This document shows positions 25,990 through 57,080 of a stretch of 64,000 nucleotides of DNA, piece after piece. Origin of the DNA: Zeaxanthinibacter enoshimensis (GTDB lineage: Bacteria; Bacteroidota; Bacteroidia; Flavobacteriales; Flavobacteriaceae); assembly GCF_004362865.1 (NCBI RefSeq), contig NZ_SNYI01000001.1, forward strand, positions 558,001-622,000. Direction: 5' to 3'. The translations under genes and the position numbers were made by a program. Position 1 is the stretch's first letter. Each line of letters starts with the position of its first letter. Below the pieces are notes generated by a model. The model was given only the letters and a program-made list of their open reading frames with translations. It did not search any database and was not told the DNA's origin.

Positions 25990-26412
25990 TTAATTTAATT
26001 GTGTCTGGTAAGCAACCGCGTATAATTTTAATTGTTTGATCATACTGACCAAACCATTTGCCCGGGTTGGCGACAGGTGTTCTTTCAACCCGATCTCATC
26101 AATGTACGCAGTATCGGCTTCTATGATATCCTTTGGCTTCTGGTGGCTGAAAGCACGGATCAGGATCGCTATTATTCCCTTGGTAATGATAGCATCACTA
26201 TCTGCAGTAAAAACCAGCTTATCCCCATCCAGTTCTGCGTGTACCCACACCTTGCTCTGGCAGCCTTTTATAAGGTTGTCATCGGTCTTGTAGGCCTCGT
26301 CTATCAGGGGAAGGGATTTACCCAGTTCTATCATGTATTCGTAGCGCTGCATCCAGTCATCGAACATGGAAAATTCGTCTACGATCTCCTCTTGTATCTC
26401 TTGTATGCTCAT
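25990..26412 (-). CDS. sufE: SufE-family sulphur acceptor
   Basis: Accepts persulphide sulphur from SufS and passes it to the SufBCD scaffold. 140 residues from the Met at 26412; an ATG nine bases earlier gives MHV plus the same frame. The domain has FSMFDDWMQRYEYMIELGK at its start and the acceptor Cys in LIKGCQSKVWV (near residue 51). It follows the small exported-protein gene by 20 bp and precedes sufT by 6 bp, so these genes are probably co-transcribed. It is separated from the main suf operon by the metalloprotease gene. Confidence 0.96.
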   Translation of the reverse strand: MSIQEIQEEIVDEFSMFDDWMQRYEYMIELGKSLPLIDEAYKTDDNLIKGCQSKVWVHAELDGDKLVFTADSDAIITKGIIAILIRAFSHQKPKDIIEADTAYIDEIGLKEHLSPTRANGLVSMIKQLKLYAVAYQTQLN

Positions 26413-26432
26413 TACATGCAAAAGTACGACAT

Positions 26433-26876
26433 CTATTCCTCGGATTCAACTATAACTGCAAGGGACTGCATTTTATTAATCAGCGACTTAAGATCTTTCG
26501 GGACCTTGTTCTGATCAAATTCCGGGGTCTGATAGGATTTGCCTCCATGACAGACACGCAGCTGCGCGATCGCTGATTTATCCCTAGCAGAATCATCGAT
26601 GTAGGTATTGATATCAGGCAGGTCCTTTAATTCTATACCGGATAGTATATTTCGTATTTCCATCCAGGTGTCTTGCGGCAGGGTGCCCTCTGCTGCCACC
26701 TGCCTGTCCCTGCTGTGAAATACCTTGATCACAGGTTCCTGCAGGGCAATTTCATAATAATATCCCCTGGAACTAGCCGTGTAATAGACCCGAAGCGGGG
26801 TGTCCTGCTCCTGGGCCGATGCGTGGAACTCTTTACTGAATCCAAAAAAGAGCGTAAAAATGATCAGATATTTCAT
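26433..26876 (-). CDS. Small exported protein of unknown function before sufE
   Basis: 147 residues with an N-terminal signal sequence (hydrophobic residues ~3-13, probable cleavage after HASAQ). The mature part has no family I recognise and contains one cysteine (RVCHGG). It is the first gene of the sufE-sufT-DUF2480 series. An intrinsic terminator ends only 27 bp upstream of its ATG, so its expression may depend on read-through or on a weak promoter (TATTTTAA) inside that gap. Confidence 0.7.
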   Translation of the reverse strand: MKYLIIFTLFFGFSKEFHASAQEQDTPLRVYYTASSRGYYYEIALQEPVIKVFHSRDRQVAAEGTLPQDTWMEIRNILSGIELKDLPDINTYIDDSARDKSAIAQLRVCHGGKSYQTPEFDQNKVPKDLKSLINKMQSLAVIVESEE

Positions 26877-26903
26877 GGGGATACTGTTGTTTCTTAAAAT
26901 ACG

Positions 26904-26929
26904 AAAAAAAGGCGCCCAACGGACGCCTT
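26904..26929 (-). terminator. Intrinsic terminator just upstream of a coding start
   Basis: Minus-strand hairpin AAGGCGTCC/GGGCGCCTT with a GTT loop (one internal mismatch), followed by seven Ts. It ends 27 bp before the ATG of the 147-residue exported protein. Confidence 0.85.
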
Positions 26930-27077
26930 AAGCTCAACGGATAATCCAAAACCTGTAGAGCAATTAAATATGATTTGTTTACAGGATGTAAAAAACGGCT
27001 TTTATACGGAGATTCAGATCCTGTAATGTATTGATTCACTGAACTATCGAAAAGTAAGATATAAAATTCTTAACAAA
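26904..27077 (-). promoter_or_regulatory. Candidate attenuator leader or small RNA upstream of the sufE unit
   Basis: On the minus strand, TTTG (27077-27074), 17 bp, TACTTTTC (27056-27049) gives a possible promoter with a start near 27042. The ~140-nt transcript would hold a 9-bp perfect stem ATTACAGGAT-type arm (27026-27018) with ATCCTGTAA (26987-26979), then a TACAGG at ~26957-26952 that could pair instead with the second arm, then an intrinsic terminator (26929-26904). Competing pairings followed by a terminator 27 bp before a coding start are typical of an attenuator. An independent small RNA is the alternative. Confidence 0.4.
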
Positions 27078-27147
27078 AAATTAAGAATTTCATCAAAAAT
27101 TTACTTCTTAATGTACATTATTGCGATTTTCAGACTGGATCGAATAC

Positions 27148-27172
27148 AAAGGGCACTACAGGAGCGCCCTTT
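27148..27172. terminator. Hairpin after the metalloprotease gene
   Basis: AAAGGGC/GCCCTTT with an inner CT/AG pair, about 10 bp past the metalloprotease stop on the minus strand. The T-run is poor on the minus strand, so its strength is uncertain. A 12-bp palindrome, TAATGTACATTA, lies nearby at 27109-27120. Confidence 0.5.
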
Positions 27173-27181
27173 ACTATTATT

Positions 27182-28264
27182 TTATAAGGATATAAATCCA
27201 TTCCGGGGACCTCCGGAAGCAAAGATGGATCGCATCCTGCTCTTTTGTCCTTCAGAGAACATATACATACAGCCATCATCCGTATAATCCATATAGTTCA
27301 TGGTCATATCATTGGATCGGCAGTTTACAGTCGGGTAACTGGGACATCCGTAGTTAGGCCCGTCAGAGCTGGGAGTATCGGCTACAAAGTCGTCCTGTTT
27401 GCATCGACCGTCTCCCCAGATATGCCTAAGGTTTACCCAGTGACCTACTTCATGAGTAGTGGTTCTTCCCTTGTCAAAAGGAGCTTGTACATAACCTTCA
27501 TCCCCAAAGAACTGAGGCCCTACGACCACTCCGTCCGTATCCGGACTACCGCCCGGGAATTGTGCATAGCCGAGGATTCCTCCCCCGATATTACACACCC
27601 AGATATTTAATTTATTTTCTGGGTCCACCGGATCTGAGCCACCGCTGGAAGAGCGCTTCATAGCATCATTTGTTCCCCAGGACGTTTTCGTGGAAGACTT
27701 CCTGATAGTCTGCACCAGGCTGAAGCTGAAATCTGAATCTGCTACCAGATCTGCAAATTCTGCAGGTACTCCACTAACGTCATTGTTCTGCGCGTTAAAG
27801 TCGTCATTCAGGATTCGGATCTGCGAAGCGATCTGGGCATCCGATATATTTTCCTGGGGCTTGTTTACGTTATAGATCACATGGACAACCACCGGGATAT
27901 TGATCACTCCCAGTCCATCATCTTCTGGTGGTGGTGGCGGTGTTCCACCTCCTCCTCCGTTACCATTTCCTGGTTTCTCAGGCTTTTTGGCGGCCATCCA
28001 CTTCCGTGAATTCTTCTCTATGTCGTACATGCGTTTTTCGAGTCCCGGGTTCTTCCGAAGTTTCTCATTCAACACCTTCATAGAGGCACAGTATTTACTC
28101 GCGTCCTTAGAGGCAAACGGATCTACCTCATCGGTATATAAATAAAAGTCGCTCATATCAACCTCAACCTGCTGAGCGGCCTGTTCTAATTCCTTATTAG
28201 TCTCCTTCTGACAGGAAACTACCAATACGGCCATTGCTAAAACAGCCAATAAGCATCTTCTCAT
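27182..28264 (-). CDS. M43-type zinc metalloprotease lipoprotein
   Basis: 360 residues beginning with a lipoprotein signal (MRRCLLAVLAMAVLVVSC). A Gly/Pro-rich linker (run of five Pro near residue 115) precedes the catalytic domain. The metzincin zinc motif HEVGHWVNLRH (HExxHxxxxxH) and the Met-turn region MNYMDYTDD are intact, matching the pappalysin (M43) family. It is probably an envelope or surface protease. It lies inside the SUF gene series, after sufS and before the sufE unit, with 194 bp of AT-rich DNA on its 5' side, so it likely has its own control. Confidence 0.92.
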   Translation of the reverse strand: MRRCLLAVLAMAVLVVSCQKETNKELEQAAQQVEVDMSDFYLYTDEVDPFASKDASKYCASMKVLNEKLRKNPGLEKRMYDIEKNSRKWMAAKKPEKPGNGNGGGGGTPPPPPEDDGLGVINIPVVVHVIYNVNKPQENISDAQIASQIRILNDDFNAQNNDVSGVPAEFADLVADSDFSFSLVQTIRKSSTKTSWGTNDAMKRSSSGGSDPVDPENKLNIWVCNIGGGILGYAQFPGGSPDTDGVVVGPQFFGDEGYVQAPFDKGRTTTHEVGHWVNLRHIWGDGRCKQDDFVADTPSSDGPNYGCPSYPTVNCRSNDMTMNYMDYTDDGCMYMFSEGQKSRMRSIFASGGPRNGFISL

Positions 28265-38040: not shown

Positions 38041-38247
38041 TTAAGCGATCCGGTGTCTTTTCTGGTACAGGTTCTCTAAAGTTCTGTTGATATCCTGTAA
38101 TTCTGGTGTCAGTATGGACAGGTTGCCACTGACATCCGTGGTTACCTCTTTGTTACAATGAACGCATTTGTACTCTTTAATGTGGGAAGTTACCTTCTTG
38201 GATACCGTGTAGTGGTGCCCGAAGATGTTGCAGAATACTTTTTTCAT
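38041..38247 (-). CDS. 68-residue zinc-ribbon-like miniprotein
   Basis: A small basic protein with Cys6, His11/His12, Cys28 and Cys31 (FCNIFGHH ... YKCVHC), a spacing suitable for one zinc ion. A helical tail follows (LQDINRTLENLYQKRHR). I do not know the family name, but similar short proteins are common in Flavobacteriaceae. It is convergent with thiL (12-bp gap). The 261 bp upstream to brnQ hold no other gene. Confidence 0.7.
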   Translation of the reverse strand: MKKVFCNIFGHHYTVSKKVTSHIKEYKCVHCNKEVTTDVSGNLSILTPELQDINRTLENLYQKRHRIA

Positions 38248-38508
38248 AAGGAAGGTTTTTAGGTATGCAATGGAAGATTTGGGGACTGCCGATTACAATA
38301 GTTGTACATAAAAATTTTGTCGAATAAAATTAAGTTTTAGTCTTCTTATATTTTAACGAAGAGAATTGCAGGATTATTGAGTCAGTAGGCTGATTTTTAG
38401 ATTTTTTCGATGAACCGCATTTCAAAGGAAAGAAATTTGACCATCCGTGGGACCAGGCTACCCATTCTAATACTTCTTTTTTACTAACTTCCCCCCTTAT
38501 TTATTCTC

Positions 38509-55535: not shown

Positions 55536-55732
55536 ATAGTATATCTTGAATCAGGTAAAGCCAAGCGGCCTTTCCCGACGTAGGTTCATAAATAATTCAC
55601 TCGTAAAGATACGATAAAATGCTTCGCATCTAAAAAGTACTGTGGCATATTACGACATGGATACGCATGGCCTGATATTACCCGGCGCCGGAGATGAAAA
55701 AAGAGCAGAAGTCGATCCTGGCAGCGGCCCTG

Positions 55733-56849: not shown

Positions 56850-57080
56850 CCTGCTGCCATTTTTCAGCATCCTTTTTCATAGCGGTCAGGTCTTCTTTTT
56901 CACAGAATTCTTATGCCGGTCCATGGCTGCATCTTAGTGAACCACCCATAGCCGGGCGGTTATAAAACAAGTGACCAACTAACACTCATTGGTTAGATAC
57001 AGGCTTGGCAAAAAGGTTGCGCCGCTGGTTGTTATATGCAAAAAGAAATGGTAATTTAGCTTTCTGAATTTTACAAAAGA
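56850..57080. other. Intergenic region trhO-recA with possible small unit or gene remnant
   Basis: On the minus strand there are two short frames, a 12-codon frame from the ATG at 56923-56921 (MDRHKNSVKKKT) and a 21-codon frame from the ATG at 56880 (MKKDAEKWQQES...). Read with one frameshift they would form a single lysine-rich peptide that ends in the terminator at 56849. A strong hairpin, AACCGCCC/GGGTGGTT (56941-56962), and a CTAAC/GTTAG repeat (56979-56996) lie further upstream. A decayed gene or a structured RNA is possible. Confidence 0.3.

Follow-up and report, generated by a model that had tools for sequence, protein, structure and literature searches.

On balance we favor the view that the 305-nt gap between an M43 protease gene (27182-28264) and the gene for a 147-aa exported protein (26433-26876, minus strand) specifies a short noncoding transcript with a terminator of its own, which might act either as a small RNA or as a leader of the exported-protein gene in which most transcription ends. 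The gap lies in our window, a 64,000-nt stretch of the Zeaxanthinibacter enoshimensis genome (3.34 Mb, Flavobacteriaceae). We compared this genome with three congeners, two of which, the metagenome-assembled genome SS_bin_70 (G001) and Zeaxanthinibacter sp. PT1 (G002), carry the element in a gap at the same place, between the M43 protease and exported-protein genes. The promoter boxes, hairpins, terminator and conservation are directly visible in the sequence, and from them we infer that a stable RNA is probably made, and what it might do.

According to the preferred reading, RNA polymerase carrying the primary sigma factor would initiate near 27044 and produce a transcript of about 140-160 nt, in which an A/U-rich linker joins a variable 5' hairpin to a conserved second one (hairpin 2), and which ends at about 26904 at the terminator. 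Its functional part would be the conserved 3' half, which could operate as a small RNA through base pairing or protein binding, or could form the end of a leader from which a small and mostly fixed share of polymerases passes into the exported-protein gene. The gene sufE and those following it would be transcribed from a separate promoter. Some hallmarks of a small RNA are present at the locus, namely its own promoter box, its own terminator (invariant except for one loop base) and the lack of an open reading frame, and the free small RNA that the first-pass annotation had listed as its alternative fits at least as well as the regulatory switch that it had preferred. Between the two forms of our own reading the leader role is favored over the free small RNA because no promoter is evident for the exported-protein gene itself.

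Elements of the predicted transcript

The putative sigma-A-like promoter of the short RNA (27076-27049, minus strand) combines a TTG (27076-27074), a 17-nt spacer and the -7 box TACTTTTC (27056-27049). We place the predicted transcription start at about 27044 because the corresponding TAnnTTTG box of Flavobacterium psychrophilum sigma-A sits at -12 to -5 (PMC9723704). All three species share TAnnTTT in the -7 box; the TTG at -33 is ATG in both congeners, and CTTAATTTTnTGTTAA, just 5' of the -7 box, has this locus as its sole exact match in each of the three genomes. Further upstream, 3' of the M43 protease gene, lies the inverted repeat AAAGGGCGCTCCTGTAGTGCCCTTT (27148-27172, minus strand), which, judging from its sequence and position, is likely to be a terminator insulating the short-RNA unit from upstream transcription. 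The gap of the congeners also has an inverted repeat 3' of the protease gene, with a different sequence.

The -33 region of this promoter is overlain by an A/T-rich inverted repeat, CTTAATTTTTTGTTAAG (27067-27087, minus strand). Similar repeats precede other genes in relatives, such as an M13 peptidase gene (L006, L008), and one is found at L005; the related motif TTAATTYTnTGTTAA precedes a gene for a TonB-dependent receptor-like protein (L129, L131) and also occurs between a protease gene and surE (L123, L127, L130). This A/T-rich repeat may represent a regulator site shared among relatives.

The layout described in the first-pass annotation, with a promoter, a long-range stem, a TACAGG and a terminator, is borne out on the minus strand, each element being found where it had been placed. 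The 5' hairpin (26979-27026) is closed by a 9-bp stem with the arms TTACAGGAT (27026-27018) and ATCCTGTAA (26987-26979). It is followed by hairpin 2, GCUCUACAGGUUUUGGAUUAUCCGUUGAGC (26932-26961), which includes the segment CUACAGG (26958-26952; the TACAGG of the DNA is at 26957-26952), and by the intrinsic terminator (26904-26929), with a 9-bp stem (AAGGCGTCC-GTT-GGGCGCCTT, 26929-26909) and a T run extending to 26904. The terminator ends 27 nt 5' of the first ATG (26876), a distance of 27-30 nt in all three species, and its base pairs have predicted probabilities of at least 0.95 in each of them, the outermost A-U pair excepted. When compared with dinucleotide shuffles, the fold of the 148-nt transcript has a z-score of -2.54, with 3 of 200 shuffles folding as well, and the surrounding 1 kb contains two terminator-like sites against 0.6 expected. 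The 9-bp stem taken alone is just mildly unusual, because shuffled sequences also contain perfect 9-bp inverted repeats spanning no more than 60 nt, 19 of 1000 in the case of the transcript (~2%) and 109 of 1000 in that of the 305-nt gap (~11%). Inspection by hand of the three species recovered no conserved leader ORF; the frames entering the conserved region differ between species and share no common start, which makes a coding leader unlikely.

Conservation and phyletic distribution

Support for the noncoding, leader-like unit ending in an intrinsic terminator that was originally proposed comes from a 76-nt block (26894-26969, minus strand), which extends from hairpin 2 through the terminator to 10 nt past the T run and is identical at 75 of its 76 positions across the three species. 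The single substitution affects a base of the terminator loop; on either side of the block conservation declines. For comparison, PT1 shares 81% identity with the window where the two align, and 80% within coding sequence. None of the other intergenic regions compared has a better 76-nt stretch than the block, which shares first place (75 matches), but several score 70-73; the block is under strong constraint without being unique in this respect. Against our preferred explanation stand the presence of the element in three species only and the existence of other intergenic stretches that are nearly as conserved between two of the genomes, one of them to an equal degree. Separately, the noncoding 76-nt stretches at 38229-38304, 55569-55644 and 57005-57080 are identical to PT1 at 73-75 of 76 positions and might contain short genes or regulatory elements that have escaped annotation.

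The approximately 70 nt 5' of the block, including the 9-bp stem, align poorly to the congeners, whose predicted RNA opens with a different 5' hairpin common to both. Of the 11 pairs of this hairpin seven are unchanged between SS_bin_70 and PT1, two are broken in SS_bin_70 and two differ in both partners (A-U to G-C and U-A to G-C), a comparison that involves two species only. As regards covariation, suggested earlier as a check on the two stems of the window RNA, the 9-bp stem has no alignable counterpart between species, hairpin 2 is invariant in all three and so is incapable of showing covariation, and the compensatory pairs belong to the congeners' other 5' hairpin.

With a covariance model of the block the three species reach 111-112 bits, and no score elsewhere in the set of 149 relatives exceeds 40 bits. 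The next-best match (L093, at 40 bits) follows a peptidase gene, lacks hairpin 2 and was set aside as an ordinary terminator. BLAST searches with the leader in 60 relatives returned long matches in the two congeners only. In G003, the fourth genome of the genus, the block is lacking and sufS immediately precedes sufE. A degenerate pattern of hairpin 2, run against about 85,000 species genomes, recovered SS_bin_70, PT1 and two actinobacterial matches that are probably due to chance; it had no match in viral contigs, and the block has no second strong match in its own genome. Taken together, these searches suggest that the element is confined to one lineage among the genomes searched. The earlier statement that no riboswitch class could be recognized is in agreement with Rfam scans of the window, in which nothing reached the gathering score and no known RNA family was matched; of the candidates from a permissive scan of the region, Phe_leader (26.4 bits, threshold 55) and MicX (21 bits, threshold 75) were dropped.

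The complements of the RNA that were examined include one weak target lead, at L029, where 14 nt in the 5' UTR of a metallo-hydrolase gene of the window genome could pair with it; the congeners have no match to this gene. Complements at the end of atpG (L024, L025) and in coding stretches were judged to be chance. L029 was the sole 5'-UTR complement found, and no conserved target emerged among the leads examined, which also counts against the preferred explanation.

Downstream genes and alternative readings

The same-strand order 3' of the leader, namely the exported-protein gene, sufE, a sufT-like gene and a DUF2480 gene, is the one argument for the proposal of the first-pass annotation that sufE, sufT and DUF2480 are under the control of a riboswitch or attenuator responding to Fe-S status or a sulphur metabolite. 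We consider this proposal very improbable. The gene sufE (25990-26412, minus strand; Pfam SufE, 1.2e-47) is preceded by its own promoter, TTG-N20-TACTTTTG (26419-26449, minus strand), 6 nt before the ATG at 26412, with a box that recurs across the family: TAnnTTTG occurs just 5' of sufE at 16 of 30 loci (three of them from the genus itself), as against a mean of 1.7 and a maximum of 5 in shuffles. In most relatives with this box sufE is preceded by sufS, or by a small exported-protein gene directly behind sufS. Moreover, the block is missing from relatives with otherwise similar suf genes, including G003, and no conserved switch is apparent. The literature searched contained no sufE leader or riboswitch of this kind. 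Control of sufE by the leader is unsupported because of this family-wide promoter, and sufE is probably independent of the short RNA. The sufE reading frame had been listed from a TTG at 26421; as the -7 box ends at 26419, translation very likely begins at the ATG at 26412 instead, and the sufE mRNA would be almost leaderless. No gene other than that for the exported protein separates the leader from the sufE promoter. This protein belongs to no Pfam or NCBIfam family, and homologues are present in 79 of 200 genomes of the Flavobacteriaceae, several of them encoded between sufS and sufE; in the present lineage the M43 protease gene separates its gene from sufS.

It is possible, and we hold this tentatively, that the RNA is a cis-acting attenuator of the exported-protein gene, in which pairing of the linker with UACAGG, or a protein or ligand bound to hairpin 2, shifts read-through into 26876-26433. 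Such a device would be in keeping with the nearly constant distance between the terminator and the ATG, with the absence of a good promoter between them, and with the ability of CUACAGG to pair with the linker segment CCUGUA (26985-26980) as well as within hairpin 2. A pairing of 6-7 bp is available in all three species, whose linkers read CCUGUA, UCUGUA and UUUGUAG, and the changes on the linker side preserve G-C or G-U pairs. However, complementarity of this extent, which is equalled by 10 of 500 mononucleotide shuffles in the window genome, is equalled by 63 and 79 of 500 in the congeners (about 1 in 7), and the pairing would break hairpin 2 while leaving the terminator intact. Further, no conserved upstream segment pairs with the 5' arm of the terminator in the three species, so that a conserved anti-terminator is lacking, and the 9-bp stem is not conserved. 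Given these results and the stable pairing of the terminator, neither the competing-hairpin switch of the first-pass annotation nor a classical terminator/anti-terminator attenuator is supported by the sequences; a mechanism involving protein binding or a pseudoknot at this RNA would still be compatible with them. It is also conceivable, though doubtful, that we are dealing with a new genus-restricted regulatory RNA whose invariant CUACAGG alternates between hairpin 2 and the fast-changing linker, thereby governing whether polymerase reads through into the exported-protein gene or whether a target is accessible, with its 5' half being replaced between species. Finally, the block might function mainly in the DNA, as a promoter or operator of the exported-protein gene with only incidental hairpins. 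Its near-complete invariance, which includes loops and the 10 nt past the T run (CGTATTTTAA), exceeds the needs of a terminator, and a promoter-like match, TTG-N15-TATTTT, is found at 26919. Yet the 15-nt spacer of this match is short, TATTTTAA departs from TAnnTTTG at two positions, the block encloses a canonical terminator with a T run, and its lack of a second strong match in the genome likewise speaks against this reading, which we regard as rather unlikely.

Significance and relationship to known systems

If transcribed, the short RNA would be an undescribed noncoding RNA of the Flavobacteriaceae, for which, to our knowledge, few small RNAs have a known function. The locus also illustrates how a gene order hinting at Fe-S control can mislead, because sufE has its own promoter. 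The value of this predicted RNA is modest. Among known systems, the Flavo-1 RNA motif, widespread in the Flavobacteriaceae, is likewise structured; it is absent from the Rfam 15 matches of the region even at E-values up to 10. Terminated 5' leaders have been inferred upstream of amino-acid operons in this family (PMC9723704), and the window RNA resembles these attenuators in being a structured RNA with an intrinsic terminator shortly before a gene; it differs from them in having neither a conserved leader peptide nor an anti-terminator, and in preceding a gene of unknown function. The Rfp RNAs of F. psychrophilum are independent small RNAs of the Flavobacteriaceae (PMC9723704). Although the window RNA has no known sequence relation to them and is a prediction from the genome sequence, it shares with the Rfp RNAs a short length, an intergenic location, a structured fold, a TAnnTTTG-type promoter and a narrow phylogenetic spread.
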